Assembly (NCBI GenBank): GCA_009760855.2
Contig: WPIO01000286.1
Location: 1 to 64,000, forward strand
DNA: 64,000 nt
Direction of reading: 5' to 3'
Origin: Cristatella mucedo
Lineage: Eukaryota > Bryozoa > Phylactolaemata > Cristatellidae
Below the pieces are notes generated by a model. It was not told the DNA's origin and made no database searches. It saw nothing but the letters and a program-made list of their open reading frames with translations. Each line of letters starts with the position of its first letter. Positions within the stretch are counted from its first letter, which is position 1. Of the stretch, positions 20,403 through 63,811 are shown piece after piece. The position numbers and the translations under genes were made by a program.

Positions 20403-20440
20403 AATTGCTTGAATGAGTTAAGAGAAAAGAAGTAGAGAGA

Positions 20441-39727: not shown

Positions 39728-39897
39728 AAGTTCATTCTGCAAGATCGACGCCAGCCGTCGGTCACAGTCTGCACGATGCTAGCCGAAAGTTTAATGTAGC
39801 TATAGCAAATAGACTTCCCGATCAGAAGGTGTTTCAAGTTGCATCGTATTTGTATGCAGAGGAGATGCTAAAGGCCGCCGAGTTCGAAGCAATACAG
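39728..39897 (+). CDS. Exon encoding the first half of a CARD
   Basis: The exon lies between TTTTAG (39722-39727) and a donor CAG|GTAACC at 39898. It enters in phase 1 and leaves in phase 0 after 56 whole codons. Residues from DASRKFNVAIANRL through YLYAEEML to AAEFEAIQ match helices 1-4 of a caspase recruitment domain, a death-fold module that pairs with other CARDs to assemble signalling complexes in apoptosis and innate immunity. The second half lies in the exon at 42164, in matching phase. The preceding exon, which must end in phase 1, was not identified; the CARD may sit behind another N-terminal domain. The repeat copies on both sides are intronic. The CARD call rests on pattern recognition across both exons. 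Confidence 0.75.
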
Positions 39898-40179
39898 GTA
39901 ACCGATTGAACAATTCTTTATGCAATCCTCCCGAAATGAGAAGCTCCATTGCAGGTCAAGTAGTGGGCTCACAGATGCTTTGCTATATTACTGGATGTAA
40001 CGCTGCCTACTTTAGCAGATTCGGCCTGCTGAGTATCGTGTGCTTGAATGTATACGACTACGAACTGCTGCTGTTACTTCTCGTTGTGAAATACAAACAG
40101 CTGTCTGCTGCAGTAATCAAACTAACGACCAGTCTCTTGAACACCTTAGGTCAAATCCTAAATATTTAGCGATAGTCCG

Positions 40180-40500
40180 TCGGCGGCTGACTTGAAAAGT
40201 ACTTAGCAGCAAAGACGTGTGGGCGGTAGAAGAGGCATAACCCCAAGTGGCATGGCCAACTCCTGCGTGCCTGTTCGTTGCACTGTTTGTGCCTAAAGCT
40301 GGTCGCCACGCCTGCGGCGCTTTTGGTGTAATGCAGTTCCTCATTAGTGTAAGGTTTGAGAGTTCGTTGGCATGAACCGAGTTGAATTAGAAAGCCCTGG
40401 CAGGGAGTTTTCCTGAATTGTACTCGCAAGCACACGATGTCCCAGTGCCCCTATCTCAGTGCTTACCTTGCACAATACTCACACACTCCCTGTGCCAAGC
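40180..40500 (-). repeat. Diverged copy of the LTR-like repeat at 29451-29894
   Basis: Several blocks align by eye with 29500-29690 (for example GTTCGTTGC, GTGCCTA, CTGGTCGCCACG, TGTACTCGCAAGC). Boundaries are unclear. Present in an intron of the CARD gene model. Confidence 0.4.
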
Positions 40501-40689
40501 ATGCTAACGTCACCCTTAACACAAGGTGCTACGACGGAAGAAATAATTTGCATCGCTAGTTCCCTGAGGCAGAGTTTTTCAACCCAGTGCTGTGTAGGCA
40601 GCACCAGCGAAGACCCTTATCATGTATATAGGAAAATATTACTCTTTTCCTTCCTAACATGATGTTGGAATCGCCAACCACGTATGCCA

Positions 40690-40930
40690 TGCAATAAAGC
40701 TCCGTCTGTAACTCTACAAAGCCCCAAAAACTATTAAGGTGCTACGAAGGGCAGTTTTTTTTATACAGCTAATATCCTAAGCGGATTTCAGTATGCATTC
40801 GGTAGCCAGAGACTTCATTTCATGCAACATCGAGTAGTTGAAGTAGTGGCTAGAATGAAAGTAGCAGCTCAGGACCACTAGAAAGAATGAGTCACAGGTG
40901 GCAGTAGGAGAGTAGCTGTTGTTGCATAAT
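40690..40930 (-). mobile_element. Non-LTR family B, 3' fragment
   Basis: Antisense. It matches 56345-56620 over the 3' UTR (CTCCGTCTGTAACTC, GCATTCGGTAGCCA, GTAGCAGCTCAGGACC) and joins directly to a family A copy. Confidence 0.65.
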
Positions 40931-40934
40931 ACAT

Positions 40935-41430
40935 TTTCGTTTTTAATGTGGTCGAGTCAGGGAAAATCACGAGGCTAGTCGGAAGTGAGTTTCAGCCTTT
41001 TGGAGCAAACGAACAAGCAGCACGGCCTCCAAAGAGTTGATACTCATACAAGGTACAGGATTAGATTCTGAAAAAGGGAGTGGTGCTGTGCTCATCTTGG
41101 TGCGGGAGTAGATTTGATAGGTAGGCTAGAGCCAAAGAATGAAGATACCTAAAAGTGAGCGACACAACCTTTGAAGTCGATGCGTTGCTTGACTGGGAAC
41201 CAATGTAGGTTGGAGAGAATTGATGCGAGGTGGCCATTGTAACACTCACGACAGACAAGAATAGCTGCGAGTTTGGCACAAGCTGTAATCCGCCGATTAC
41301 ACCAGCCGATAGACCAGCAAGCAGTGAGTTACAGATGTCAAGACGGGATGTCACAAAGTTGGATTTGGTATTCCTGGCTAAACAAGCCCGAATTTTAGTT
41401 ATTTTATGTAGCTGACATTAGCCATTTACC
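40935..41430 (-). mobile_element. Non-LTR family A, RT C-terminal fragment
   Basis: Antisense. The RT C-terminus (SRLDICNSLLAGLSA in frame 41061-41354) is diverged. The stem-loop and tail are missing; instead it abuts family B. Confidence 0.75.
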
Positions 41431-41514
41431 AATTTCGCCTACAGAAACGGTAAAAGATGGGAGTTACTTTACGAAGATCTGCTTTCCTGATTAGCTATTA
41501 CTGACCTGGAGCAC

Positions 41515-41760
41515 TTCTGACTCATCAACGGATACAGATTATAGTTCTCATACTGTCCCACAAGGCTATTTATAGCTTAGCTCTCTCACAACTTTCTGAA
41601 CTGCTCTGCAAGTTTGAGCATCGCCATGCCATCAGGTTCTCTCTGCAGAAAAAGTAAGCTGTTCCTATTCGTTCCTTAAAAAAACTGTTTGCAACAGGTT
41701 TGGGAGAGTTTAAAAAGACCAGAGATTTCATGGACTCTCTGATTTGTAGGATGTCTTGAC
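41515..41760 (+). mobile_element. Degenerate RT C-terminus of another non-LTR type
   Basis: Across frames, QRIQIIVL.LSHKAIYSLALSQLSELL resembles the [15 protein letters not shown]...LSDLL block. Too decayed for family assignment. Confidence 0.35.
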
Positions 41761-41944
41761 AAGTTAAACGCTAAGATACAGTCATGCATTCCTGGCAAGT
41801 ACTAGTTTCGTGAGTTAAAATTGAAATCGTTTGAGCCTGAACGCAACTGCTACGTAAATAAACGGCTGTACTTACCAGTTACGGAACAGTAACTATTGCA
41901 TATTCATTCTCTAAAACCCTGTTCTATGATTATTTTACGGTGCC

Positions 41945-42018
41945 TTTAACATTAATAACAATAATGTACTTGATAAAGCGCCCTCAGAGAACTTAATCTC
42001 TTTCTAGGCGCTCTATCG
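41945..42018 (-). mobile_element. Non-LTR family A, short 3' tail
   Basis: An AAT-type tract with a near-canonical antisense stem-loop only. The nearly intact sequence suggests a recent insertion in the intron between the two CARD exons. Confidence 0.8.
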
Positions 42019-42163
42019 GAATATTGAACACGGTATGCTCTTATAGCAACTTGACATTACAACGTGTACAGGCACAGCCTGCAAATGTAGGCTAGTCAGA
42101 GAAATCTCCCGTCAAAAGTCTCTGCCTTATCTTTTGCTGACTCTCAGCCCGTTCGTTTTGTAG

Positions 42164-42295
42164 GCCCAGCACACACAAATAGAAAGAGTTTTTAAACTCG
42201 TGGAATACTTATTAGTGAAGGGGGAAAGTGGAGCTGAGAAGTTTCTTGCAGCTCTTCGGCAATGTGAAGAACAAGAACTTGCAGATCAGATTAAG
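42164..42295 (+). CDS. Exon encoding the second half of a CARD
   Basis: It is framed by a strong acceptor (CGTTCGTTTTGTAG ending 42163) and a strong donor AAG|GTGAG at 42296. The 132 nt make exactly 44 codons, phase 0 in and 0 out, continuing the exon ending at 39897. QIERVFKLVEYLLVKG and EKFLAALRQCEEQELADQI are the helix 4-6 region of a CARD, whose usual signature is L(L/V)..L..RG...F..FL.AL....Q..L.... Joined to the previous exon, the domain is about 85 residues, the normal CARD length. The next exon in the model is the coiled coil at 49645 (phase 0 in). It shows no frameshift or stop and looks functional. Death or DED domains are less likely because of the FLAALRQ...ELAD ending. Confidence 0.82.
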
Positions 42296-43079
42296 GTGAG
42301 TGAGCTGAAGTAGATATGAGTTTCAATTTGTTGGTGTCACGTGATTGAAAAGAGATTGATCACTCGTGAATCTCTAGTGAGCTAACCCAGGTAATTTTAG
42401 GGCTCGTGATTTACGGAGTTTCTAAAATGGTTGAGTCTACCTAAGTCGCATGCCAGTTAGCACTTATTATTATACGGCGATCGACTCCATCTGCAGCTCC
42501 AGCAAGTAACCATGGACTAGTCCGACTGAGTGAACTGTGAATGATCCCAGGTGAGCCCAGCTAACTATCTGCTGTGTCTGTAATAAGTAAGCTCAGATGC
42601 GTGTTCAGTTAGTGAGCCCAGGTGAGAGTCTATACCAGCAAGACAATACGTTTTCCCCACGTGCTTAATGGCATGAACCTTAACTCATTTTTAAAGAAGA
42701 ATGTAGTAATTCGCTGGCTTAGTGCCTTTAAAAGACATTTGCCATTCAAAACTTAAAAACTCAAGATGAGAGGATCGATACATTTGTGTCACTTGCATGG
42801 TCGTAACCTAACATTCAAAAGCGAACGAGTATGGCCATCGTGCTAAACTAAACATGGTACTCATTGCTATCGGCATGGATGACCGCCCACAAGTAAACTG
42901 TTCGAAATCACGGCCAGGTTCACAGGCAAAGTGCACCAGAACAAAAAAACATACACATTGAATAGGGCAAAGAGATGCTTACCAGAATAGAAGTGTTTTT
43001 GGCTGCAACTAAAATGATGCCTGGTTAGTGCAGGCAGCGATCAAGTTAGAAGCTAGCTGAATTTTGTCGCTTTGTAGTT
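42296..43079. other. Intron sequence, no gene seen
   Basis: This follows the donor of the second CARD exon. Nothing else is recognised. Confidence 0.4.
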
Positions 43080-43690
43080 GCTGTAAGCTTGATTAGCAAA
43101 GATTTCAAATGAGTTCTGAATGTGGAACGAGGGATGGCGGAATGAATAGATTCTAAGGATCTGGTGGTGCACAGTTAAAGAGATAAGAGGTCGAAAGCAT
43201 AGGCTGGTTGAAGTAGATGGAATGAATTATAGGTTGGATGCAGAATCTCGAACTGAATCCAACGCTTGATTATAAGCCACCAATGGTCAGACGTAAGTTT
43301 TCTTATCAAGAGTTTAGTGAGAAACAGAGCTCCGGAATATGCCAAAGAATTGGCAGTTATTACCGGTACTTCCAAGTTCGGAAGTATTACCAGTCGATCG
43401 ATTAGGCCTTAACAGCATGCATTGTGATTATTCCGAACCCACTCTGCTTGTGATGGTAGGTCACTGATGACTTTGAAATTTACTCTCTTTCCAGAATAGC
43501 GTGACAGCCAAAGAAGGCTTGAGCAAGATAATGAAAGCACCTACAAGTGAGTGACAGAAACTTGTTGTTAATATGCTGCTTAATGACGAGCCAGCAGGCG
43601 TTGGTAATTCGTGGTGTTATGCGGAAATTGAGAAGTTGGCTGCAGGCAAGCCTAGCCTCAGAGTTGTGTACCTCTATAAGCACCTTTATC
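43080..43690 (-). mobile_element. Divergent non-LTR RT C-terminus, two pieces
   Basis: The minus-strand frames 43480-43692 (SEARLACSQLLNFRITPRI and FLSLTCRCFHYLAQAF) and 43175-43375 (DHWWLIIKRWIQFEILHP) both resemble the RT C-terminal repeat [23 protein letters not shown]. They are distant from families A and B and overlap in content, so two insertions or a duplication are possible. Confidence 0.5.
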
Positions 43691-43699
43691 AATAGAAGG

Positions 43700-44629
43700 A
43701 GAATCTGCCAGTCGTGACTACCACTTGGCTGTTTCGTCGTTGTCCCAGCTGATATGAAGTTTTGGAATCGTTCATAGCTGGACGTCGGTGGACATATTTA
43801 AGGAGCTCATGCAATCTTTCATTGTAAAGTGATTTTAAAGAAGAACACTAAGAAATGCTACGGGGGGTGTGCTGGTAAAAATTGTTTTTACGGTTTTGCA
43901 ATACATATTAATTATATTTCCATGGAATTCTCAGAGAACTTAATCCCGATCAATGCACTGTACATAGACCATAATACGATTGAATAGCCACTTTAGAGAA
44001 CTGAATAGCTGGTCTAGGCACTTGGCAGGTATATTAAAAGTAGTATAATCTTATTGAAATGTAACCAAGCATAATACGACTTAATGCACAAAGTTAGTTG
44101 ATTTAATTTTCATTTAGTTTGAGAAATTTTAAATTTTGGCATGACTTTTGTTTCGGAAAACTAAACTTAAAAAACAGATGGAAGAAAGAGCACATAAAGC
44201 ACTTATTTTATGCCCACTGGCCGAAAGCTCATCTAGTGGAAGTGGTTCAGAAATTCTCCGTTGGTTATGGTTCGAACATGGATTAAGGTGGCAGCCCGAG
44301 GTAGACAATCCTGGGCAATATGCCACTTCCGAACCTAGAGGCTGTGCAACTTTATTCACCTGCAATAGGCTAATCGTGTCAGCGGCTTCAATTTCGAGTG
44401 TCTAAAAGGGTCAAAAGTAGGCATCATTTGGTCTGATCAGTTAGCAGTAATCCTCATTTGCAAGCTTTCTGAAGTAGTCTCAAAGAGTGGCTTTGAAGGG
44501 GTACATTGATGTGTAGCAAAGGACTGAGGGTGATGAATTGATAGTGTCTTACCGAATGTTTGACAGACTAGTGTTGAGTTATTCAATCACTGTGCCAGAT
44601 TACGGTGGTATAAATAGAATAAGAAGGCA
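43700..44629. other. Intron-like stretch with a decayed stem-loop and unassigned frames
   Basis: A decayed antisense family A stem-loop may lie at 43925-43985. Frames 44148-44405 (+, MEERAHKALILCPLAESSSS) and 44129-44365 (-) overlap; neither is recognised. Confidence 0.25.
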
Positions 44630-45238
44630 ACTTGGCAGCTGCAGCTGGATATGAGTACTGCTGCAAGGCTAGTCTTCAAGTCCCAGAGGTTCGAACACGT
44701 GTCTCCTTTGCTTAAAGAGCTAGCGTGGCTGCAGGTTGATCAACCGATAGAGAGCAAAGTCCGTACAAAGATCCAGAAGGCCAGCAACGGCTTGGCTTCT
44801 CCGTTCCTTGCTGAACTACTGCACCAGTTTCAGCCTCTTTGGGCCCTCAGATCCTGTAAACACAAAAATTTGGCTGTTCCATGCTGCTGCTTAATGACCA
44901 TTGGCGACAAAAACTTAAGCTCTCAAGTCCTAGACTGTGGAACTCACTTTGCTTCCACGATTCTTAGCCAACGATAACTACTCTGTAGCTGCCGACTATG
45001 GCTCACTCTTTTCAGCGTTCCTGAACTCCTACTTCCATGCTACTCACTACCTCGACTGCCCTCCTGAATCTGCTATGCTGTCCACTTTCTATGTGTTGAG
45101 TTAAATGAAGTGTGTTGGCTACCGAAAGCACACCGCAAACCGCTTAGTCTGTGATTGGGCCGTACAAAGCTGTCCTGCGTCACACCCACGTAGTCTTTGA
45201 GGCCTTGAGGACTTACAGACAGAGATACATTACACTAC
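44630..45238 (+). mobile_element. Non-LTR family B, RT C-terminus and 3' end
   Basis: Sense. SAARLVFKSQRFEHVSPLLKEL and LHQFQPLWALRS match 19230-19440. The 3' UTR continues to GACAGAGATACATTACACTAC, the beginning of the pentamer tail. The frame 44651-44977 is nearly intact. Confidence 0.78.
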
Positions 45239-45520
45239 ACTAACAGAAGCTAGAAAGGCTTCTATATAACCCAGCGTTCAGTAGGCCATCGCATGATTCG
45301 TTCTCTGTATGCTTATGTCTCCTTACATCTATTGGTGCTGACACTAAACGCACTTGTTGTAGGCTGGCCCTGCGGAAGTCAGTATAACCATATTATGATA
45401 AGTATCATAGAGCTTGCTAGTACTAAACGTGCGATAGTCGTACTTCTTCTCCAGTAAATGTAAAGTGCCTAATAAGATATTAGGCTCTCTGAGGGTGCTA
45501 TATTAAGAGTATTTTTCTTT
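45239..45520 (+). mobile_element. Non-LTR family A variant, 3' fragment
   Basis: Sense 3' UTR and variant stem-loop (AAAGTGCC...GGGTGCTAT). It is followed directly by antisense ORF2 linker sequence, an arrangement repeated at 59840-60460. Confidence 0.65.
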
Positions 45521-45529
45521 TCGATTGTT

Positions 45530-45835
45530 AGGATCTACCGTAGCAACGTATGCCTGTCGATTGACAATCAGTCCTGACATTTTTTCATACTTTTTTAAAG
45601 GTTGGGCTAAGTAGACCTAGCTAGCTTAACTTCTGCAGTTAACCATTTCCGTCAGGGTGAGGGCACACCGTGTGCTTAGTCAGAGAGGCAAACTAGTAGG
45701 ACATGTCTGTGAGCGTGATGTAAGAGCAATCTGTTAAAGGCCACAGGTCGGGAAGGTGGATTGAGCAGCAGAGGCACAGTGCACATTTTCGCATGGATAG
45801 CAAAGACGCTAAGGTAATTTAGGTTGTCTTTTAAT
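45530..45835 (-). mobile_element. Non-LTR ORF2 linker fragment (endonuclease-RT)
   Basis: Antisense. It aligns with 60075-60400 over most of its length and, more weakly, with 27040-27120 (GAGCAGCAGAGG ... CGCA.GGA.AGC). No tail. Confidence 0.55.
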
Positions 45836-45884
45836 TCACTTGTATTTTTAAGTGAGGATGAGGTTCGCACACGGAATAATAATA

Positions 45885-46565
45885 ATAATCATAATATTGT
45901 ACATGATAAAGCTCACTCAGAGAACTTAATCTCTTTCTAGGCACTTTACATTTGCTGCAAAGGGAAATGCAATTGAATGGAAAGTAAAACCATGCTTGAA
46001 AAACAAACAAAATGAATAATATGGTTAGGGTTAGGGGTGACATGCACAGGGTCAGCATGCAAATGTGGTTAGTGGCAGCATGCACAGTGTCAGCACGCAT
46101 AAGCACATGAAAGACGAATCACAGGGACCCACTAAATGCTGTCCTAAATAGATGTGTTTTTAAGTTCCCTTTAAATGTGGTCAGGTCAGGGGATGTTCTG
46201 ACGCAGGTCGGGAGGGAGTTCCAGGCTTTGGGAGCATATGAACTAAATGCACGGTCTCCAAAGGATTTAAGGTTTGTATGAGGTATTTGTAGACTGTTGG
46301 ATTCCGAAAAGCGGGTGGTACGATGCTTGGCCTGATGGGGGAGTATATCGGAGAGATAGAATGGAGCCATAGAATAAAGGGACCTAAAATTGAGTGACAA
46401 AACCTTGAAGTCAATCCGTTGCTTGACTGGTAGCCAGAGCAGGTCTGCGAGAAGTGGAGTAATGAGGCAACAGCGAAGCTCACGACAGACAAGCCTAGCT
46501 GCACAGTTTTGCACCAGCGGCAATCACCTGATCGCACGTGCTAGTAGGCCAGTAAGCATTGAGTT
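45885..46565 (-). mobile_element. Non-LTR family A, 3' fragment (within X1)
   Basis: Antisense, with an intact reading frame 46119-46523 for the RT C-terminus. It ends at the same base context as 52966-53640, so one insertion preceded the duplication. Confidence 0.88.
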
Positions 46566-46839
46566 TTTCACTCCAGCTTCAATCAAACCTGGCGGATGTG
46601 GCCATATTCGCTAGCCTCAATTTAAAAATGTTTGCAGTTCCCTTAAAAAAGTCTTGTGAATCTTTCGCTGCAAGTCAATTTTTTAGTGAGCTGACAACTT
46701 TTCTATCGCTCGAAGGAAATAAGTCCTTATTATTATTATTATTCATTATTTATTTATTATTTATTTATTTATTATTTCATTTATTATTCATTATTCATCG
46801 CAGATTATTCTATTATCGTTGTGAGTCTTCACTCTTAAA

Positions 46840-47275
46840 TCAATCTAGCCACGTTGTGTTCGATTTTAAATTTGATTTTGATAAATATCTGTTCATTTAA
46901 GCGAACTTTTGTTACTGGAGGACTCGATCACTCTTGCCGCCCATGTACGTCACCTTACTCAATTTAAGGCTCACACATTCCGCCACACGTTTCTTTTAAA
47001 CCGAATGCCAACTTCAGCAACGCCAAAATTCCGCCTATCTAACCACAGGCTGATCTCAGTCAGTCTACACGATGTGCCCTCCTCCACATCAAAGGTCATC
47101 TGTGAATTGCGAAACCCTGAGACTGGTGGTATCGATGCTATCCGCTCTAGAAATTATTTTCTAGGCCCCAGCTAATTAATCGACCCTCCAACCTTTTCCT
47201 TTGCAGCAATTGTAAAGCGCCTAGAAAGAGATTTAGTTCTCTGAGGGAGCTTTACCAAGTTGTGATATTATTATT
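46840..47275 (+). other. Open frame with attached family A stem-loop tail (X1)
   Basis: Frame 46909-47175 (88 codons: LLEDSITLAAHVRHLTQFKA ... NYFLGPS, stop) is homologous to 53900-54180. The body is not RT and I do not recognise it. At 47205-47275, 30 bp after the stop, the family A 3' terminus (TTGCAGCAATTGTAAAGCGCC, then the stem-loop and ATTATT) is attached. Copy 1 has a TAA just upstream (46898-46900) where copy 2 is open; copy 2 has a 1-nt deletion near 54040 where copy 1 is open. It may be a non-autonomous element using the family A 3' end, or a host fragment that received a short tail insertion. Confidence 0.4.
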
Positions 47276-47597
47276 CATAACAGGTAGAATTCTACAACAC
47301 GACTCTAGCTAACATGCTTGACAAGTTCTTGCTCTGGGTTAGTTCACTGGCTGTCCTCGTGCTGACGAACTATACGGTTTAACACGGATGATAAACTAGC
47401 TAGGTGAACTAAGTTAAAGTTTTTGCGACAGCATGGGAAAGATCAGTACTTATTTCTTATTGAAAGGTTGCTTGTTATTATTTTGATTATAATATTATAT
47501 GCTTGTATTATTATTATTTGCTATCATTATTGACATATTTCTTAGGTCTACCGTCGGTTATCATCTTTAGCATTCCCACATTAGCTCCTTACTTTGT

Positions 47598-47667
47598 GAC
47601 CCTATACCCTACTAGTCTCGTCGACCTTATAACCAGGTATAGGGTCTCTGAGACTAGTAGGGTATAG
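47598..47667. repeat. Long inverted repeat with two alternative pairings (X1)
   Basis: CTATACCCTACTAGTCTC at 47602-47619 is perfectly complementary to 47650-47667 (18 bp, 30-nt loop). In addition GACCCTATACC at 47598-47608 pairs perfectly with 47636-47646 inside the loop, so two exclusive hairpins are possible. Conserved in X2 at 54611-54680. Confidence 0.93.
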
Positions 47668-48258
47668 CATCCTCGGAGAGCTCGATCTCTTTCGAATATT
47701 TGTAAAAAGGCTGCAAATAAAGCTTGATCAAATGGTTATTTGCATTATGCTGAATATGCAACAAGAATAACAAGGTTGGTGGTGAAATGCACAGGATTAG
47801 CATGCTAGCATGGTTAGTGGCAGCATGCACAGTTTCAGCATGCATAAGCACTCAAACGGTGAATCACAGTAATTCGCTAAATGCTATCATAAATAGATGC
47901 GTTTTCAATTTCTTTTTAAATGATAATAAACCAGGAGACTTCGCGATGCAGGTCGGGAGTTAGTTCTCAGCTTTGGGAGCATGGGAACTAAAAAGGCACA
48001 ATATTCAAAGGATTTGAAATGTGTATGGCGTATGGGTAAATTATTGTATTCCGAAAAATTGGTGGTACGACGCCATGCGTCCTTGGGAAGTAGATCTGTT
48101 AGGTAGGCTAGAGCCAAAGAATGAAGGACTGAAAAATGAGTGATAAGATAATGAATTCGGTGCCTTTCTTTACTGGAAGCCAGTGCAGGCGGCAACAAGT
48201 GATGTGATGTTGCAACTGTGATGCTCACGAAGACAAGCCTAGTTGAAGTAGTAGTAAT
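47668..48258 (-). mobile_element. Diverged non-LTR family A copy (X1)
   Basis: Antisense stem-loop (decayed), 3' UTR and RT C-terminus. The long inverted repeat stands where the microsatellite tail should be. Confidence 0.75.
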
Positions 48259-49250: not shown

Positions 49251-50215
49251 TGTCGTAGAAATGGCATTCACAGTGGATTCATTGCAGTTACATTTTTGAT
49301 AAAACTTAAAAATACAATAGGAGAAAAAAATTACGTTTAGTTGCTTTGCGAATGAATATTGGGTTCTTACAGCTTACTGCTTGTGTGGCACTATTTATTA
49401 ATGTATATTCAATACTGCAGGCCGGTAACACCACGTTACCACGAACCAGCTTACATTTTTTGACATAGCCTTATAATATGAATTTAGTAAAGTTAATTTT
49501 TATTTGCGCAGTCTTGAAACTTCTGAGGTTTAGTTTAAAGCAGCATTCTGTCTTTATTCGAATTGATTGAGAGGATATTATGCTCGAACACTGACATATT
49601 TAGTTATATTTATATTTACTTTTAAATGTTTCCGCTTCAAAGAGCAACAGGAAAGCCAAATCAAAGAGAAGGAAGAAATTACACGGAAGCTGCAAGAGAA
49701 TTGTCAACTGCTGTCACAACAGTTGGAGCTTGAGCTTGGGAAAAGTCAGAAGTTGCAGAAGCTTCTGAATCACAAGGAGACCCAGTTTAAAGTTGCTCAA
49801 GGTTAGCATCATGGGAGCGGCCTTTGCAAGAATTTAGGCTGAGCCTATAACTCGATTGATTTGAGTCTCGCAGCCTGTTATTTGTATGCATTTCTAGATC
49901 AAATTGCTATTTTTATGGTCCTTGAATTGATTATTAACAGAAATATGCCGAGCCGTGACTGCCGTAGCAATGTAAACTTGCTTGGAAGGGAGCTGAATGA
50001 ACGTTTTCTATTCTCAGCATTGCCTCTTGCCGCCCTGCATTACTTTCTAAAAGTGCTGCAGTTAATCCCTCTAACGTAGTAGTCATCAGGCCTGCTATAG
50101 CCTTAGCAGCCCTGCTTAACAATGCATGCCTTCCAGTGCTTGCTAAATTGAACGAACCCCCTAGAATACTTGCAGTAATTACTTCAAACGGCTTTACCAT
50201 TTTCTGATATATTTG
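49251..50215. repeat. Duplicated block Z, copy 1
   Basis: Matches 51890-52870 at clearly less than complete identity, with small indels only. It includes the coiled-coil exon and about 400 bp downstream with a conserved TGAACGTTTTCTATTCTCAGC region. Confidence 0.85.
49645..49801 (+). CDS. Coiled-coil exon, copy 1
   Basis: 157 nt, read between an acceptor at AAAGAG (ends 49644) and the donor CAAG|GTTAGC at 49802; phase 0 in, phase 1 out. That fits the CARD exon before it (phase 0 out) and the propeller exon after it (phase 1 in). The 52 residues are highly charged with heptad leucines (ITRKLQENCQLLSQQLELEL, then KSQKLQKLLNHKE), a parallel coiled coil likely to drive self-association next to the CARD. 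The acceptor is weak; using the AG two bases earlier would change the phase to 1. Copy 2 at 52310 is the same length without indels, and both are open, so selection on the reading frame is likely. Confidence 0.72.
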
Positions 50216-50564
50216 ATATTTCTGATATATTCGCTCCGACTCTCAGCTAAGTGGTGGGCAATGTTAATAAGTTGTGGACTCTAGGTTTGCAGTTGCAAAC
50301 TTTTCACGTCTACTGCTGGTGGTCGAGATAGCCAGCAAGGCTCTCCAGAAATCATCTCCTACTTCTATATAATTGTAAGTTCTAAATGAGCCTACCTGTA
50401 TCTACTAATCAGTTGTTTCGAACTTTCTGTACTATTTGTTAGTGAGTATTTGCTCCAAATATATTAGGAAATATTAATGTTTGTTTCGAAGTTTACTCAC
50501 CAGTGCTCGTGCATTTCCAAAAGTACTCAATGTATTATGGTTCGTTTATCAGGGAACACTGACT
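50216..50564. other. Spacer between the Y-Z duplicates
   Basis: No gene recognised and no clear second copy in the window. Confidence 0.3.
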
Positions 50565-50867
50565 ACTCCATTGGCACTCAGTTCGGTTCCATCAACCGAA
50601 AGTCACGTGTCAAATACTGGAACGAGGTAGACACGGAGGATGACAGTCTTTAGCTGGCGTTAGGCTTTAACCACGAAGAGCACAAGATTTAGCAGAAAGA
50701 CGAGTATTTTAAGATTGTGCCAACACACATTTTTGTATAGCTATTGCTGATAAAATATCCTGATCATCCTTGTAAGTATGTCTCCTTATAATGCATGTTC
50801 ATTTGTTTCCGAACATGTACCAATCTTACCCATTGCAAATTCTACTGGCTTTACTCAAATTCTCTTA
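50565..50867. repeat. Duplicated block Y, copy 2
   Basis: Counterpart of 48950-49235. Interrupted at 50868 by a family A copy, after which Z2 continues. Confidence 0.75.
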
Positions 50868-51885: not shown

Positions 51886-51889
51886 TATT

Positions 51890-52870
51890 GCATCTGCCTT
51901 AGCACACCAAGCTTCAAATAATGTAGAAATCACATTCACAGTGGAATCACTGCAGTTAAATTCTATAATACCTAAATTTACAATAGGAGAATAAAATTAC
52001 GTTTAGTTGCTTTGCGAATGAATATTGAGTTCTTACAGCTTACTGCTTGTGTGGCACTATTTATTAATGTATATTCGATACCGCAGGCCGGTAACACCAC
52101 GTTACCACGAACCTACTTACATTTTTTGACATAGTCTTATAATATGAATTTAGTAAAAATAATTTTTAATTGCGCAGTCTTGAAACTTCTGAGGTACAGT
52201 TTAACGCAGCAGTGTGTTTTCATTAGAATTGATATGGAGGACATTATGCTCTTACACCGACATATTTACTTATATTTAAATCACTTTTAAATGTTTCCGC
52301 TTCAAAGAGAAACTGGAATACGAAATCCAAGAGAATCAAGAAAATATACGGAAGCTGCAAGAGAAATGTCAACTGCTGTTACAACGGTTGGAGCTTGAGC
52401 TTAGGAAAAGTCAGAAGTTGCAGGAGCTTCTGGATCACAAGGAAAAAACATTGAAAGTTGTTCAAGGTTAGCATCATGGGTGCTGCATTTGCAAGAATTT
52501 TGGCTGAGCCAGTGATTCGATTTATTTAAGTCTCACAGCCTGTTATTTGCATGCATTTCTTGATCAAGTTGCTATTTTGTGGTCCATTATTGATTACTAA
52601 CAGAAAACTGCTGAGCTATGACTGCTGTAGCAACCTAAGCCTGTCTGGCAGGGAGCTGAATGAACGTTTGCTATTCTCAGCATTGCCTCTTGCCGCCCTG
52701 CAATACTTTCTAAAAGTGCTGCAGTTAATTCCTCTAACGTAGTAGTCATCAGGCCTGCAATAGCCTTCGCAGCCCTGCTTAATAATACATGACTTCCAGT
52801 GCTTGCTAAATTGCACGAACCCCTTTGAATACTTTCTGTAATTACTTCAAACGGCTTTAACATTTTCTGA
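51890..52870. repeat. Duplicated block Z, copy 2
   Basis: Counterpart of 49251-50215, containing the second coiled-coil exon. Confidence 0.85.
52310..52466 (+). CDS. Coiled-coil exon, copy 2
   Basis: 157 nt, the same length and splice context as 49645-49801: acceptor AAAGAG ending 52309, donor CAAG|GTTAGC at 52467; phase 0 in and 1 out. Residues include NIRKLQEKCQLLLQRLELEL and KSQKLQELLDHKEKTLKVVQ, more strongly leucine-zipper-like than copy 1. Splicing copy 1 directly to copy 2 would break the frame (1 out into 0 in), so if both are used they should be alternatives, giving two forms with different dimerisation surfaces. With the alternative phase-1 acceptor the two could be spliced in series, but then neither would fit the CARD exon. 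Confidence 0.7.
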
Positions 52871-52965
52871 TATATTAGACTTGACCGAGAACTTTCAGAA
52901 ATCGATTGACTGCTAGACCATAACCAGTAAAACAGCTGCAGGCTTTCTTTTTTAATGAAAATAGT

Positions 52966-53640
52966 AATAATAATGCACTTGATAAAGCGCCCTCTGGGAA
53001 ATTAATCTCTTTCTAGGTGCTTTGCATTTGCTGCAAAGGGAAATGCAATTCAATGGTAAGTAAACTCATGCTTGAAAAACAAACGAAATGAATAACATGG
53101 TTTAGGGTGACATGCACAGGGTCAGCATGCAAATGTGGTTAGTGGCAGCATGCACAGTGTCAGCACGCATATGCACATCAAGGACGAATCACAGAGACCC
53201 ACTAAATGCTGTCCTAAATAGGTGTGTTTTTAGGTTCCTTTTAAATGTGGTCAGGTCAGGGGATGTTCTGACGCAGGTCGGGAGGGAGTTCCAGGCTTTG
53301 GGAGCATACGAGCTAAATTCACGGTCTCCAAAGGATTTAAGGTTTGTACGAGGTATTTCCAGACTGTTGGATTCCGAAAAGCGAGTGGTACGATGCTTGG
53401 CCTGATGGGGGAGTATATCGGCGAGATAGAATGGAGCCATAGAATGAAGAGACCTAAAAGTGAGCGACAAAACCTTGAAGTCAATCCGTTGCCTCACTGG
53501 TAGCCAGTGCAGGTCGGCGAGAAGTGGAGTAATGTGGCAACTGCGACGCTCACGACAGACAAGCCTAGCTGCAGAGTTCTGCACCAGCTGCAATCGCCTG
53601 ATCGCACATGCTGGTAGGCCAGTAAGCAGTAAGTTATTTC
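52966..53640 (-). mobile_element. Non-LTR family A, 3' fragment (within X2)
   Basis: Antisense. The RT C-terminal frame 53189-53593 is intact (134 codons, ending FSGSL). Same insertion as 45885-46565. Confidence 0.88.
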
Positions 53641-53859
53641 ACCCCTGCTTCAATCAAACCTGGCGGGCGTGGCCATACTCGCTAGTTTCTCCCTCAAATT
53701 TTAAACGTTTGCAGTTCCCTCAAAAAAGTCTTGTGAATCTTGTGTTGCAAGTTTATCTTCTAGTGAGCTGACAACTTTTCTATCGCCCAAAGGTAGTAAG
53801 TCCTAATTTATCGCAGATTATTCTTATATCATTGTGAGTCTTCACTAATAAATCAATCT

Positions 53860-54290
53860 ACCCACGTTGTGTTCGATTTTAAATTTGATTTCGATAAATC
53901 ATCTGTTCCTGTGAGCGAACCTTTGTTACTGGAGGACTCAATCTCTCTTGCGGCCCATGTACGTCACCTTACTCAATTTAAGGCTCACACATTCCGCCAC
54001 ACGTTTCTTTTAAACCGAATGCCCACTTCAGCAACGCCAAATTCTGCCTATCTAACCACAGGCTGACCTCAGTCAGTCTACACGATGTGCCCTCCTCAAC
54101 ATCAAAGGTCATCTGTGAATTGCGAAACCCTGAGACTGGTGGTATCGATGTTATTCACTCTAGAGAATATCTTCTAGGCCCCAGCTAATTAATCCACCTT
54201 CCAACCTTTTCCTTTGCAGCAAAGGTAAAGCGCCTAGAAAGAGATTTAGTTCTCTGAGGGAGCTTTACCAAGTTGTAATATTATTATTCT
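53860..54290 (+). other. Open frame with attached family A stem-loop tail (X2)
   Basis: Counterpart of 46840-47275. Frame 53869-54066 includes SVPVSEPLLLEDSISLAAHV and ends early because of a 1-nt deletion relative to copy 1. The stem-loop tail is at about 54215-54285. Confidence 0.4.
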
Positions 54291-54610
54291 TAACAGGTAG
54301 AATTCTACAACACGACTCTAGCTAACATGCTTGACAAGTTCTTGCTCTGGGTTAGTTCACTGGCTGTCCTCGTGCTGACGAACTATACGGTTTAACACGG
54401 ATGATAAACTAGCTAGGTGAACTAAGTTAAAGTTTTTGAGACAGCATGGGAAAGATCAGTACTTATTTCTTATTGAAAGGTTGCTTGTTATTATTTTGAT
54501 TATATTATTATATGCTTGTATTATTATTATTTGCTATCATTATTGACATATTGCTTTGGTCTACCGTCGGTTACCATCTTTACCATTCCCATATTAGCTT
54601 CTTACTTTGA

Positions 54611-54680
54611 GACCCTATACCCTACTAGTCTCGTAGACCCTATAACCAGGTATAGGGTCTCTGAGACTAGTAGGGTATAG
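54611..54680. repeat. Long inverted repeat with two alternative pairings (X2)
   Basis: The 18-bp arms are at 54615-54632 and 54663-54680 with a 30-nt loop, as in X1. The inner alternative pairing is also kept. Confidence 0.93.
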
Positions 54681-55270
54681 CGTCCTCGGAGAGCTCGATC
54701 TCTTTCGAGTATTTTTAAAAAGGCTGCAAATGAAGCCTGAACAAAAGGTTATTTGCAGTATGCTGAATATGCAACAAGAATAACAAGGTTAGGGGTGACA
54801 TGCATAGGATCAGCATGCTAGTATGGTTAGTGGCAGCATGCACAGTGTCAGCATGCATTAGCACACAAAAGGTGAATCACAGGGATTCACTAAATGCTGT
54901 CATAAATAAATGCGTTTTTAATTTATTTTTAAATCTGATCAAGTCAGGAGAAGTCGTGATGCAGGTCGGGAGTTATTTCTCTGCTTTAGGAGCATGGGAA
55001 CTAAAAAGGCACAATATTCAAAGGATTTGAAATGTGTATGGCGTATGGGTAAATTATTGTATTCCGAAAAATTGGTGGTACGACGCCATGCGTCCTTGGG
55101 AAGTAGATCTGTTAGGTAGGCTAGAGCCAAAGAATGAAGGACTGAAAAATGAGTGATAAGATAATGAATTCGGTGCCTTTCTTTACTGGAAGCCAGTGCA
55201 GGCGGCAACAAGTGATGTGATGTTGCAACTGTGATGCTCACGAAGACAAGCCTAGTTGAAGTAGTAGTAA
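54681..55270 (-). mobile_element. Diverged non-LTR family A copy (X2)
   Basis: Counterpart of 47668-48258. From about 55005 onward it appears identical to X1, while the part before it differs at many positions. Confidence 0.75.
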
Positions 55271-55876
55271 TTACCATTAAATTTAGATCCCGCTCATTAG
55301 CAACGTTTTGTGTTTGAAACCGTGTGTTATAAAACAGTCGTTAATATAAATAGTAGTTATTTTCAAACGGCTACAGCGATGACGTCTGGAAAATTACAGG
55401 TAATCATGTTGGTACCATACAAAACTGCACTATTGAGGCATCCTATTGAAATAGTTTCAAGATAAATCAGCCCGATAACTACCAAGATGAATAACATTTA
55501 CGGTTAATTTATTGTAAGGGCTACAGGAAGATAGTGTGGTTTTCTATAATTAGATGTCCTAAATGTCGATGTCAAGTACTAATGAAGAACTGACTGTCTG
55601 AGCAGTTAAAGAAATTCCAGCAGAGCCAGATAGATATTTTGATGCGTCCTGCAAGAGCTTTATTATGTGAGTTTAAAATGATTAAACATATAAATCTAAT
55701 GTTGATTGTTCATGCAAGTGCCTAATATTTTGAGCTTTAGGTGCTAATGCAATCCAAACCCCCTTTTAATTAGAGCAATTCATTGCTTGGGCTACAGCTT
55801 AAGCACTGGCAGCTAGCCTGAAATATATTTTGAATTGAGAGTCCATATGAACCTATGAATGTACGAACAGATATGA

Positions 55877-56149
55877 AACGATTGTTCACTTTATTAAAAG
55901 CGTGCATGACGGTTTGGAATGTATACCAAAGCTTCTTTGCCAAATTCTGGCTTGGAAAAATATGCGAACAATGATTTCTTGTATGATTTCCATAAATGGA
56001 TGTTTGTTTCTTATCGATCAGACTGTGCATGGAGATAATCGGCAAAAACTAGGCTGCTTGACGAATCGTAGAGCACGTCCAAAGCACAACTAGAGTGACT
56101 ATGCATACAAGAGGTTCAATGGTAGCTACATTCCATCTCGTGGTAATTT
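55877..56149. other. Stretch without a recognised gene
   Basis: Beyond the X2 boundary. Short overlapping frames on both strands, none recognised. Confidence 0.3.
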
Positions 56150-56240
56150 ATTTGAGCTTAGGAGCTAAGGTGCTTGCTCTTTACGGCTAATGTTGAGTGT
56201 TCAAATCTTGCTGGGCCGAGTTTGTATTTTTAAGTTGAGG
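56150..56240 (+). mobile_element. Degenerate tRNA-derived SINE head
   Basis: AGGTGCTTGCTCTTTACGGC and GTGTTCAAATCTTG resemble the tRNA-like head of the SINE family (anticodon-arm and B-box region). The body is not recognisable. Confidence 0.4.
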
Positions 56241-56339
56241 AATTGGTATAGCAATGAGGCCGTTATGCCATACTACAAACAATGCAGTTCAATCACCCAA
56301 TATTTCTTAATATTCACTTCGTTCATGTGCTTCCCACTA

Positions 56340-56985
56340 TAATATAACGTAACGCATCTCCGTCTGTAATTCCACAAAGCCATAAGGACTATGTTGGTAT
56401 TACACAGGAGAGTTTGGCATAGCGAACTCACAGCCTCAGGGGCTGTCGGTATGCATTCGGTAACCATCAAAGTTCATCTCAAGCATCAGAGAGAAAGTGG
56501 AAAGCATAGCAGAGTCAGGAGAGCGGTTAAGGTAGTGAGTAGCATAGAAGTAGCAGCTCAGGACCGTTGGCAAGAATTAGCTATAGTCGGAAGCAGGAGA
56601 GTAATTGTTCTTGCATAAGAATCGTTGAAGCGAGTTTCACGGTCTAGTACCTGCACAGGTAAAGCTTCTGTCGCCAACGATCCTTAAGCGGAGGAATGGA
56701 ACAGCTAATTTATTTTCCATAAAGGCACTGAGGGCACGAGGAGGCTGAAACTGGTGCAGCAGTTCTGCTAGGTACGGAGGATCCAAGCTGATGTGGGCAT
56801 TGTGGGTCAGCGTAAAAGCTTTGCTTATTTTATCCGATGAACAACCGGCAGCTATCCTAGCTTACTTAGCAAATAAGAGACACGGTCAAACCTCTGAGAC
56901 CTGAACGTTAGACTTGCAGCTATATTCATAGCCAGCTGCAATGGCCTAGTTGCTTTCTTTGGTAGCTTAGCCAAATGGGAATTAC
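56340..56985 (-). mobile_element. Non-LTR family B, longest 3' copy
   Basis: Antisense. 3' UTR, then the RT C-terminus on the minus strand (the block corresponding to SAGPRLRN near 56620, and LLKEL upstream near 56870). A TAACG-like tail lies at 56341-56355. Confidence 0.7.
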
Positions 56986-57394
56986 AACAAGCAAGCCGAG
57001 ACAAAACTAAGGTTCTGCCAATCGCAATAATGCAACGGCAGCTGTATAGAAATATAAATCATTGTGGAACATGGACTGTCCTAGGAACTGGATTCCACCG
57101 GCTAAAAACTGGCTAAGGCAATGCCCTTAACTTCATAGTGCTAACTCTTAAAGCCGTTCTGGGAAAACGGATCAAAACCGCAGTTTCAATGTGGAACTTG
57201 AGGAGTTATCTCACAGTTTAATTAATCATATCTGCCATATGTGCTATTACAGGCCTTAGCATGAGGAACAGCATAGTCGCATTCGATCTATAACATACAT
57301 TTTAAACTATGTTGTCTGTTATTTGAAAAATAAAACCGCAATTACCCTGTGTGAAGATAATTTAAAATATATTTATTGTGTATAGCGCATTAAG
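56986..57394. other. Stretch without a recognised gene
   Basis: No coding family recognised. Parts may be more family B sequence too decayed to read. Confidence 0.3.
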
Positions 57395-58870
57395 TACTTA
57401 CATCCAGTGAAAAACTCTGCAGCTACGCTTATCTGTCGTGAGCTTCGCAGCAGCGATGTCACACCACTTCTCACCGATCTGTACAGGCTACCACTCAAGC
57501 AAAGCATCGATTTCGAGGAATCGTCACTCACTTTTTGGTCCCTTCATTATTTGGCCCCTGTGACCTATCAGATTTACCCCCTACCAGGCCATCGTGCCAC
57601 ACACTTTACAGAATTTAGTGTTTACCCCTTCCCCTAACGAATCTCAAATCCTTTAGAGACCGAGCCTTTAGTTTGCATGTTCCGAAAGCCTGGCACTCAT
57701 TCCGACTTGCTTCGCGACCTATCCTGACTTATCCTGACCAACCTATCCTGACTTGTCCACTTTTAGAAAGAATCTAAAGCTCATCTATGTACCACGGCCT
57801 TTGCTGAGTCCCTGTGATTCGTCCTAAATGTTTTTATCTGCTCTGACAATTGGTATGCTACCACTAACGAGACTTGTATGCAGATCTCGTGCAGGCCACC
57901 CCTAACCATGTTATTTTTGACAGTTATTGTGCTTGCTACCACTAACCATTTGATCATGCTTCTTTTACAGCAAATGTGAAGTGAGTAGAAAAATTCTAAT
58001 TTTTTGAGGGTGCTATATCAATGTCTTATCACAAATATTATTCGTATACCTCATTTTGAATCTGGACGAAATCTGTGTGTGTATTCCGTAGTGACAGTTT
58101 ATTAGATGACCACGTGGGCTATGCTATTGATTCTTTCTACTTTCTGCTACCTAACAAAGGTAGAATTTGGGTTCGTTTAAACAAAAAATTCCATCTAATT
58201 GGTACATGCATTAGGAAAATCCTGTATTAATTTCTGTAACTCACAAATTGCGTATCTACTAGCAACTTCAATTAGGCGTTTGCACACGTATGGGAAAAAT
58301 TTCTGTTTCAATCTCGGAAGATTCGTATTCGTTATATCAAACCATGCTTCCTTTACAAGGAATGTAAAGTCACTAAAAAGAGATTGTGTTCGGAGATTGA
58401 TTATTGATTGGGCTGTGGATTTATAGTAATCAATATTATTATTTTTAATATTATTAATCCACTTCTTTTAGCTGACCTGCACTATCGACTTCCCACCAGG
58501 CTCAAAATACTACCACTCGCTTTTCGGAATATAGTCGCTTACCTAAATGTCGCAAGGAGCATCTAATTGATAGGCAACGATGCCGCTCGTTCTCATCCTC
58601 CACAAGCCCGGAACTCTCTTCGAACCGGCGTCACGACGTTCTCTTACCTGAACAGACATAAAAAGATTCTATCAATGCGTCTATATATTGCAGCGTTTAG
58701 TGGGCTTGCAGGATTCATCCTCTGTGTATATTCATCCTCTGTGTGACCCGGTGCAAGTCACACTAACCATGTTATGCTGGTTATCATTTAGCATGCCTCC
58801 ACTAACCATGCGACCATGCTTTCTTTCCAGCAAACGCGAAGTGCCTAATATAATACATCTGGTGCAAAAC
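57395..58870 (+). mobile_element. Non-LTR family A variant debris, tandem unit 1
   Basis: The order is: RT C-terminus (NSAATLICRELRS, 57407-57637), 3' UTR with decayed stem-loop (to 58050), a second RT piece (58075-58440), then RT C-terminus and 3' UTR again (58470-58860). It is repeated as 58880-60070, without the first 3' UTR. Confidence 0.65.
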
Positions 58871-58879
58871 TTGCATCAT

Positions 58880-60070
58880 TACATCTGTTGCAAAACTCTG
58901 CAGCTTCGCTTATCTTTCGTGAGCTTCGCAGCTGCCACATCTCACCACTCTGCACCGACCTGTACTGGCTACCAGGCAAGCAAAGCATCGACTTCGAGGA
59001 ATTTTCACTTACTTTTCGGTCCCATTTTATTTGGCCCCTGTTACCTATCAGATCTACTCCCCTACAGACCTTCATTCCACAAACTTTGCATAATTTAATT
59101 GTTTACCCATTCCTCTAACAAATCTCAAATCAAATAGAGACTGAGCCTTTAGTTTGTAGCGACAGTTAATTAGATGACCACATTGGTTCTGCTATCGATT
59201 CTTTCTACTTTCCTCTATGTAACAATGGTGGAATTCAGGTTCGTTTAAACAAGCAAAATCCCTTCTAATTTTCAGATACATTGGAGAAATCCTGACTTAA
59301 TTTCTGTAGCTCTCTAATTGCTTATCAGCTAGCCAGTACAGTAATGCGTTTGCATATGGGGAAAATCTCTGTTTCTTTGTCGGAAGAGTCTTATTTGTTG
59401 CGTCACACCTCGCTTCCTTTGCAAGGAATGTAAAGTTCCTAGAAATAGTTTGAGTTCTGAGATTGTGTATTGATTTCGCTGTAGATTTATTGACATTACT
59501 ATTATTATTGTGAATATTATTATTCAACTACTTTTAGATGACCTGCACTGGCTACCAGTCAACAATGTTGTTGACTTCAAGGATTTATCAAGTACTTTTA
59601 GGTTCTTTTTATCTTAATCCTATCTGGCAGATCTACTTCCCGCCAGGCTCAGAATCGTACCACTCGCTATTCGGAATATAATCGCTCACCTAAATGTCGT
59701 AAGGAGCCTCAAATTATTCGGAAATGCTGCTATTATTACTCATCCTCCAGAAGCCCGGAATTCACTTCGAAGTGGTGTAACAAAGTTCCCTTTCCTGAGC
59801 AGATTTCAAAAGAATCAAAAATGCATCCATATATAGCAGCGTTTAGTGGGCGCTCGTGATTCGTCCTCGGCGTATGTATGCCTTCTTACAATATGGATGT
59901 TGTCACTAACCACACTTGCAGCTTGACCCGGTGCAAGTCACCCTAGCCATGTTATGCTTGTAATCATTTAGCATGCTACCACTAACCTTGTGACCATGGT
60001 TTCTTTCCAGAAAACGTGAAGTGCCTAATAAAATATTAGGCTCGCTGTGGGTGCTATGTATCAAGTGAAT
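58880..60070 (+). mobile_element. Non-LTR family A variant debris, tandem unit 2
   Basis: The RT C-terminus at 58885-59120 matches 57407-57640, the piece 59150-59520 matches 58075-58440, and 59535-60065 matches 58470-58860. The same gaps and joins in both units show that an already rearranged array was duplicated. Confidence 0.68.
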
Positions 60071-60074
60071 TATT

Positions 60075-60460
60075 CTTTTCGCTTGGTAGGATATACAGTA
60101 GTCCTCGTATGTCTGCCGATGGACAGTCAGTCCCGACCTTTTGTATACTTTTTTGAAGCTTTGGCTTAGTAGACCTAGCTAGTTTAATTTCTGTGGTAAA
60201 CCATAGGCCGTCAGGGTGAGGGCTCACAATGTGCCTGTTCAGAGATGCAAACTAGTAGAGCATGCCTGCTAGTGTGACGTGAAAGCAACCTATAAGTAGT
60301 GACAGGTCTTAAGGTGGATTTGAGCAGCCGAGGCCTTGCAAAAACGTTCGCATGGACATCGTTGACGTCAACGTTCTCGAGGCTTTATTATTCATACGTA
60401 TTTTCATATGAAAAAGAGGTTTTCACTCGGTATAGACTCTGTGAGATCTGCATGTGGTCA
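60075..60460 (-). mobile_element. Non-LTR ORF2 linker fragment
   Basis: Antisense. Aligns with 45530-45835 and follows a sense variant stem-loop in the same way. Confidence 0.55.
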
Positions 60461-60479
60461 GATAGGCAACGTTGGTAAT

Positions 60480-60557
60480 AATTGGTCTTAGTAGCCTGTG
60501 TTAGTAGGAGACATTTGGTCAAATGTCTCCTACTAACACAGGCTACTATGACCAATT
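60480..60557. repeat. Near-perfect 37-nt hairpin with a 4-nt loop
   Basis: Arms 60480-60516 and 60521-60557 are complementary over 37 positions with a single T-T mismatch (60488/60549), around the loop GGTC. The core arm includes TAGTAGCCTGTGTTAGTAGG. Compatible with a small fold-back element or a microRNA-like precursor. It is not part of any repeat family I could follow elsewhere in the window. Confidence 0.95.
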
Positions 60558-60971
60558 GGCAAATAGCTGGCTGTAGCCAGCATTCTGTTGTGGAGTCATA
60601 TTTTTGCTGTGGTACTAGAAAGCTGTTACTGCTGTGGTAATTTGTGTACCGTAGAGTTGAACGACTTTCTTGTTAAGGTAATGTAATTTCCTTATGTACC
60701 TAGACTTGTACGACTTTTGTGCTAAAGAAACGTTTAAAGGTAAAGTGTAGTCGCGTTGAAAGAAACTTTTAAATGTAAAAATGCATTGGTGCGATGTGAG
60801 GTGTCTGTCGATGTGTAGTTGATTAATCACTCAGCAATGACTCTTACCTCGACTTTTTTTTTTACTTTCTGGTCGTGCCTTCTACTCCTAAGCACGTCTG
60901 GACATTTTTATTTCTTGCCTTTAGCTATTAACGTATCAATTGCAATGCTAGTCACTACTGGTTGTTAGCTT

Positions 60972-60973
<2 letters not shown>
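60558..60973. other. Stretch without a recognised gene
   Basis: Short frames only. It lies upstream of the (AT)n tract and the propeller exon, so it is intron in the proposed gene model. Confidence 0.3.

Positions 60974-61051
<78 letters not shown>
60974..61051. repeat. (AT)n microsatellite
   Basis: About 39 uninterrupted TA units just upstream of the propeller exon. Confidence 0.98.
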
Positions 61052-61053
<2 letters not shown>

Positions 61054-61141
61054 CAAGAATTTTGAATATATTTTAGCTGCTTAGAGATTGTTATCTTATA
61101 TTTATTTTGTAACTATTTATTTGTATCAGTCGTTTGGACAG

Positions 61142-61998
61142 CTATTCGTGCCAGCTGGCGTTATCCGACCTGCTACGACGTGGCTGTCGCAGATGAAGAC
61201 ACTGTGCTAGTGGCTGCTTCCGAGCAAGGACTGAAGGAGTGCGACACGAGAGGGAACGAGCTGCACTGCTGGAGACCGAAAGGAGGAGAAGACGAGAGCG
61301 TCTGCACAGTGGACGTGCTGGACGACGGTCGAGCGGCTGTTGGCTTGTTTGCTTCAAAGCAGGTCGTGCTGCTGCGACGCAGCTCTGCCTACGGCCGCGC
61401 CTGGCTCGAAGACAATTGTGTCGCTGTGCTGCAGTCACCTGCGAGGCAACTGTCCGTCCACGGTAAGATCCTAGCTGCATGTGAGAATAGGTGGAACAGT
61501 GAGGAATCAAAGAGTTAGTGGCCTAAACTAACAAATCCTAACCGCTGGGTGCCTGGCCCTCAGCTGGTGCTCGTGAAACTGGATGATGCTACATCGCTGT
61601 ACCGAAGTAGGCTGGAGTACGACATTAGCAGCGTTGCAGTAACGGATCTAATAGTCGTCGCAGCTAGCGAATTTAAAGTCAAGCTCAGCGACATGAGAGA
61701 AATGTATGTGGTGGACGGCTACAATTACTCTGGCGACAGACTCTGGCGACACGAGCGAAGCTGTAAAGTTATAGACATTGTGCCCTTTGGACACGTGCTA
61801 TACCTGGCTGTGTGTAACAACAACGTCGTGCAAGCCATCGGAATTGATGACCGTCAGCACCTGATGAATGCCGTAGCATGCGACAGACCGCACGCACTGT
61901 CGCTGGCTAAAGGAAAGCGCGTCCTAGCGGTCATTAGAAGAGATGAGAAGAACCATCCATGTCAAGTGACCGTCTACCAAGTCAGTGGCTCCACTTGA
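61142..61998 (+). CDS. Terminal exon: beta-propeller-like C-terminal domain
   Basis: Begins after CAG (61138-61140 region, GTTTGGACAG) in phase 1, as required by either coiled-coil exon, and ends at TGA 61996-61998. Repeated strand-turn units such as GLKECDTRGNELHCWRP and YNYSGDRLWRHE suggest propeller blades of NHL or PQQ type, a binding platform common at the C-terminus of TRIM-NHL and other sensor proteins. About 285 codons would make roughly one full small propeller. One in-frame TAG (61516-61518) lies in a stretch of about 24 codons that the paralogue at 1316-2151 lacks. It could be a short intron (branch-like CTAAC and acceptor CCTCAG at 61562), but I found no donor in compatible phase, so a nonsense change or an insertion remains possible. 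Possible polyadenylation signal at 62303-62308. Confidence 0.72.
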
Positions 61999-63805: not shown

Positions 63806-63811
63806 AGTCAC

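Follow-up and report, generated by a model that had tools for sequence, protein, structure and literature searches.

Predicted CARD exons with signs of diversifying selection and a TRIM-type coiled coil-propeller module in the bryozoan Cristatella mucedo: parts of a possible single gene

Two described groups of proteins are among the known systems closest to the locus considered here. The CARD-coiled coil proteins CARD9/10/11/14 belong to CARD-coiled coil/Bcl10/MALT1 complexes, as excerpts of PMC5978004 describe them, and excerpts of PMC3503706 place TRIM proteins with C-terminal propellers, the TRIM-NHL type, in subfamily C. A literature search that included excerpts of these two sources and of PMC2575513 turned up no CARD-coiled coil-propeller protein, which is not proof that none is in print. 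Here, we analyse a stretch of 64,000 nucleotides from Cristatella mucedo (assembly GCA_009760855.2, contig WPIO01000286.1; C206:1-64000 in our numbering of contigs, hereafter the window), in which a first-pass annotation had combined two CARD exons, a coiled-coil exon and a terminal propeller exon into one gene. The best explanation overall, to which we give an even chance, is that the locus is a decayed copy of a possible CARD-coiled coil-propeller gene. The genome searched comprises 572 Mb in 688 contigs; exon phases are readings of the sequence, transcripts not having been used, and splice-site scores use rough weights after the general consensus.

The CARD module consists of exon A at 39728-39897 (entered in phase 2, left in phase 0) and exon B at 42164-42295 (phase 0 at both ends), both on the + strand; the positions and phases first assigned to them are confirmed, and their splice sites are conserved in most copies of the family. 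Both exons are open, the donor of exon B outscores every other GT in the window and the donor of exon A lies in the top 1.5%. When joined, they encode 100 residues with a match to the PF00619 profile (E 2.3e-8; score 34.4 bits, cut-off 23.9), and all six family members compared with this profile match it at E 0.01 or better. The single joined sequence gives weak matches to solved CARDs in the PDB (best RAIDD, E 0.2), and a profile built from the six retrieves 46 different PDB sequences up to E 1, almost all of them CARDs or CARD-based designs. RAIDD is again the best match (2e-5); Bcl10 (0.0015), CARD9 (0.055), CARD11 (0.22), Apaf-1 (about 0.24), RIPK2, CED-3, NLRC4, NOD1 and MAVS are also found. 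By these profile matches, the predicted product of exons A and B is a CARD domain, as the first-pass annotation had named it.

A genome search with the joined exons returns 39 matches with E values up to 10. Clustering these by location, and requiring a best match of E 1e-3 or less in each cluster, yields 14 CARD loci beyond the window: C131 has six, C81 has two, and C218, C313, C26, C80, C655 and C678 have one each. Three are one-exon loci, with exon A at C655 and C131:82307 and exon B at C131:270731. The copies at C313:52656-53939 and C26:367191-368474 are nearly identical, as are C146:16075 and C146:222930; such near-equal pairs suggest unmerged haplotypes or very recent duplicates, and locus counts are therefore perhaps inflated. 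From the CARD family, 20 stretches were fetched, 11 of exon A and nine of exon B. The acceptor AG and the donor GT are each kept in 9/11 copies of exon A and in all nine of exon B; both exon A sites are lost in C678, and in C131_199k the acceptor is gone and GC stands at the donor. Stop codons are present in exon A of C313 and C26 and in exon B of C131_197k.

Selection (DIVERSIFYING) was analysed on open or nearly open CARD copies only, namely seven of the 11 exon A stretches, seven of the nine exon B stretches and the window. Excluded were the three exons with stops, exon A of C131_199k for its lost splice sites, and, for their likeness to C131_62k and C313 B respectively, C131_82k A and C26 B; C678 was retained despite its lost exon A sites. 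The ratio of nonsynonymous to synonymous divergence (dN/dS) by the NG86 method exceeds 1 in all 21 pairs of seven sequences, with a range of 1.14-4.32, the pairs not being independent and the synonymous counts being small (2.5-15.2); between the window and the six other copies it runs from 1.58 to 4.32. Under the GY+F3X4 codon model in IQ-TREE (nine sequences, 101 codons), dN/dS (omega) is 2.42 with a log-likelihood (lnL) of -1719.92, compared with -1733.98 when omega is set to 1 (best result among six values of kappa). Omega is 2.35 without the window, 2.10 for exon A alone and 2.89 for exon B alone, and the MG codon model gives lnL -1700.24. Flanking introns served as the neutral reference, with every pair compared among eight sequences for A and eight for B: exon A diverges by 26.9% and its flanks by 19.6%, exon B by 22.7% and its flanks by 16.3%, and divergence at codon positions 1/2/3 is 29.7/28.1/23.0% in A and 25.4/24.5/18.2% in B. 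The exon is more diverged than its flanks in 12/14 pairs that include the window, the two exceptions both being with C131 (A, 24.4% against 37.1% in the flanks; B, 6.1% against 7.4%). Because omega is 2.4 and the exons diverge more than their flanks, the CARD family is, as judged by these codon comparisons, under diversifying selection. The propeller provides the contrast, with an omega of 0.60 and lnL of -3498.63 against -3510.41 at omega 1 (seven intact paralogues; better of two kappa values).

Downstream of the CARD exons on the + strand lie two coiled-coil exons, at 49643-49801 and 52308-52466, which form a tandem duplicate with 66% residue identity, within a unit of about 990 bp that is 87.6% identical at the DNA level. 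The two exons have 24 differences, with dN 0.17-0.19 and dS 0.06-0.09, and the adjoining introns are about 12% diverged. The exons that the first-pass annotation had recognised are real; its starts at 49645 and 52310 and its phases of 0 in and 1 out are disfavoured. The acceptor AAAG (AG at 49641-49642 in the first copy) is present in 9/9 aligned copies, whereas the following AG, on which the earlier starts depended, is present in 6/9, including both window copies, and is replaced by TG in C75, C655 and C681. The exon therefore probably starts at 49643 and 52308 and, since the upstream AG is common to all nine copies, is best read as 159 nt long with phase 1 at both ends; with such phases the two window copies can follow one another.

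A genome search with the second copy finds 11 places: the two window copies and nine others. Five of these nine (C624, C681, C203 twice and C75) are each followed, 7-20 kb further downstream on their own strand, by a propeller with 56% or more identity to that of the window. With 20 kb allowed for each, the 27 propeller matches at or above this identity take up about 0.05% of the two strands, and the link between coiled coil and propeller is therefore not chance. C75 is moreover collinear with the window from the coiled-coil region through the propeller. The remaining four comprise two places on C146, one weak match on C678 (E 0.27) and a chance-level one on C75. That coiled coil and propeller belong to the same gene, as was originally proposed, is thus well supported by their arrangement in the genome.

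The propeller-like terminal exon, at 61130-61998 on the + strand and entered in phase 1, is a real family exon with at least 173 genome matches. Its best acceptor is at 61129, giving a first base at 61130, with an alternative at 61141, both in phase 1; the paralogues have two candidate acceptor AGs, in phase 2 and phase 1. The first-pass annotation was right about the exon and its phase, its start at 61142 is better moved to 61130, and the exon that it placed up to 61998 contains an in-frame TAG at 61516-61518, which it overlooked together with a relationship to TRIM proteins. In the protein collection, the joined model has a single relative at E up to 1, P0004, of 687 residues (E 6.8e-29; best 7998 candidates scored of 5.8 billion proteins). 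P0004 has RING- and B-box-like regions, each under the Pfam cut-off, plus a coiled coil, and is read as a TRIM protein of the order RING-B-box-coiled coil-propeller. The terminal exon matches it with 36% identity (E 4e-36 in the window), and the window propeller is, by homology to P0004, of TRIM type. P0004 itself has at least 65 scored places in the genome, and a large TRIM family (e.g. L001-L008) has RING-B-box-coiled coil exons 40-51% identical to it at these 65 or more places, most of them open. Acceptors of TRIM-type propellers are read as phase 1 in two copies, and phase 1 is also the reading for the donors that TRIM first exons probably use. The propeller of P0004 finds itself only in the protein collection (7997 scored), and no relative was found in viral contigs or in bacterial and archaeal genomes. 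Neither Pfam nor the PDB gives a significant match to the propeller domain; weak matches to propeller families come from one of eight members each (MRJP 0.017, PQQ_2 0.024, NHL 0.17), and the fold model of P0004 is poor (mean pLDDT 37.4). The name beta-propeller is nevertheless plausible, from the sequence pattern and these weak family matches.

The premature TAG lies within an in-frame insertion of about 33 nt (61506-61538, ends approximate, + strand) that is missing from all eight fetched paralogues, seven of which are open, the other (C75b) having a frame break elsewhere. NG86 ratios between the window propeller and the eight paralogues range over 0.71-0.93 (one of the eight being C75b, whose frame is partly wrong), compared with 0.51-0.72 in the four pairs available among other paralogues. 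In the window, the propeller has probably become a pseudogene or would at best yield a truncated protein, and the window copy as a whole probably does not make the full protein. An intron over the stop (a phase-keeping GT-AG at 61463-61663) was judged unlikely, as it has a good donor, a middling acceptor and would lose 67 codons kept by 8/8 paralogues. Just past the window are three further propeller copies, at C206:64078-64308, 71587-72455 and 77229-78083 (L037, L038), all with stops or frame breaks, which as read here are a tandem row of broken propellers.

The proposal that the CARD exons share one transcript with the coiled coil and propeller has, on present sequence comparisons, about an even chance. 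It is favoured by collinearity with a single locus, C655:2084900-2099700, where CARD exon A, a coiled-coil remnant and a propeller are arranged as in the window, in order and in strand, the sole recurrence of this order outside the window. C655 aligns with window positions 39674-61256 through a chain of matches of 78-88% identity, in which the piece 50243-50854 is out of order and several pieces are repeated elsewhere in the genome; its propeller lies within an open frame of 305 residues, its coiled-coil exon is partial and it has no exon B match.

Several observations weigh against a shared transcript. Among the matches listed, no same-strand propeller lies in the 20 kb that follow 13/14 of the other CARD loci, and the nearest downstream are at 30 and 38 kb on C81 (45 and 42% identical) and at about 45 kb on C218. 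The CARD unit on C131, which is 90.6% identical to the window over 2.5 kb from exon B onward, has neither coiled coil nor propeller within the 8.3 kb fetched. Conversely, no CARD is found on the coiled coil-propeller contigs C75, C681 and C203, and the match on C624 is at chance level (E 0.87). Exon B ends in phase 0 and the coiled coil is best read as beginning in phase 1, so there is no in-frame join unless the second AG or a linking exon is used: the junction is out of phase with the AG of 9/9 copies and in phase with the second AG of 6/9, and the fit of phases first claimed for one gene is lost here unless that second AG is taken. One candidate for a phase 0 to phase 1 linking exon after exon B, of 52 nt at 43495-43546 and open in the window and C131, was judged insubstantial. 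Nothing convincing was found as a first exon upstream of exon A, and no homologue with both CARD and propeller appeared among some 8,000 candidates scored in the protein collection.

In the explanation that we prefer, the locus would be a duplicated, partly decayed block with two expanded exon families: upstream, a two-exon CARD module from a family apparently under diversifying selection, and downstream, a coiled coil-propeller module whose last exon is akin to that of the large TRIM family. The likeliest ancestral product would be one protein, in which the propeller would bind ligand, the coiled coil would pair chains and the CARD would recruit other CARD proteins; the CARD would be joined to the coiled coil-propeller part via an unseen exon leading from phase 0 to phase 1, or via the second AG. 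The shared transcript, the propeller fold and any signalling role are the parts of this scheme that we infer. A repeat of several hundred bases, present at 44621-45242 and 56340-57010 in opposite orientations and in many copies at other propeller loci, may have helped duplicate the block. More tentatively, such proteins could be lineage-specific CARD-coiled coil-propeller innate-immune sensors, exon-shuffled from a CARD gene and a TRIM propeller via phase-1 junctions, with no nucleotide-binding domain and with a CARD signalling end that diversifies as if attacked by pathogens.

Two other explanations account for parts of the same evidence. The phase mismatch between exon B and the conserved coiled-coil acceptor, the 13/14 CARD loci with no propeller within 20 kb among the matches listed, and the coiled coil-propeller loci on C75, C681, C203 and C624 with no convincing CARD match would all be expected of two neighbouring genes, a CARD gene whose other half is unknown and a separate coiled coil-propeller gene, juxtaposed once and co-duplicated to give the window and C655. 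This is a serious possibility, if somewhat on the improbable side, for in both places the CARD precedes the other exons in the same orientation and at gene-like spacing, the coiled-coil exons resemble the CARD in having dN above dS and above intron divergence, and diverged CARD copies can escape the CARD search. We consider it unlikely that the window holds relics only, that is, dead CARD, TRIM and propeller pieces amid retrotransposons that yield no product. The stop in the window propeller and its raised NG86 ratios, the broken RING/B-box and upstream propeller, the further broken propellers at C206:71587-72455 and 77229-78083 and the dense repeats of the window are as such relics would leave them; however, the two CARD exons of the window have kept both an open frame and their splice sites, and decay alone would bring the ratio near 1, yet the window CARD stands at 1.58 to 4.32 against the six other copies.

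The remaining features of the window lie mostly upstream. A second, TRIM-type propeller remnant at 1287-1958 (+ strand; P0004 match 1287-1895) has its frame closed at 1950-1952, before the domain end, and no relative at E 0.001 in the protein collection (2424 candidates). What remains of a RING and B-box exon from a TRIM gene occupies 4866-5467 on the + strand and matches P0004 at 4893-5150 and 5174-5467 in two frames, with a frame change between 5150 and 5174, a TAG at 5366-5368 and a retrotransposon-like frame after it. This broken copy, at 4893-5467, is the only RING/B-box match of P0004 in the window; it precedes the CARD exons by over 34 kb, and none was found joined to the propeller gene. 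Long gag/pol-like frames of Gypsy-type look, read by eye with no family search made, extend over 5369-9867 and start within the remnant. A 20-nt unit is repeated in a tandem array of near-identical copies at 20385-20784, and a short propeller fragment lies at 63796-63865 on the + strand. No tRNA was found in the window, and no Rfam family reaches its gathering threshold there.

Three known systems can be compared with the locus. The analogy to Apaf-1 that was first drawn is supported by nothing more than the CARD and the possible propeller: Apaf-1 itself is just one among many weak hits of the CARD profile, the window propeller is of TRIM type by homology and gives no WD40 match at E up to 1, and no NB-ARC was recognised by eye in the reading of the window, no NB-ARC profile search having been made. 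The likeness to CARD9/10/11/14 lies in a CARD followed on the genome by coiled-coil exons, and in a CARD profile that finds CARD9, CARD11 and Bcl10 in the PDB; the sequence comparison covered the CARD, and the window has a propeller instead of their known C-termini. As RAIDD (2e-5) comes ahead of CARD9 (0.055), no special kinship to CARD9/11 is shown. With TRIM-NHL proteins, the likeness lies in homology between the window's terminal exon and the C-terminal region of P0004, a protein with RING- and B-box-like regions and a coiled coil; the difference is that the claimed gene has a CARD in place of the RING and B-boxes, and that NHL is matched by only one of eight members, at E 0.17. Even if the parts did not form one transcript, an omega of 2.4 for the CARD against 0.6 for the propeller in one genome points to conflict on the signalling domain. 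If CARD and propeller did share a transcript, they would form a receptor layout not met in our literature search, in which TRIM C-termini have been reused to aim a CARD.

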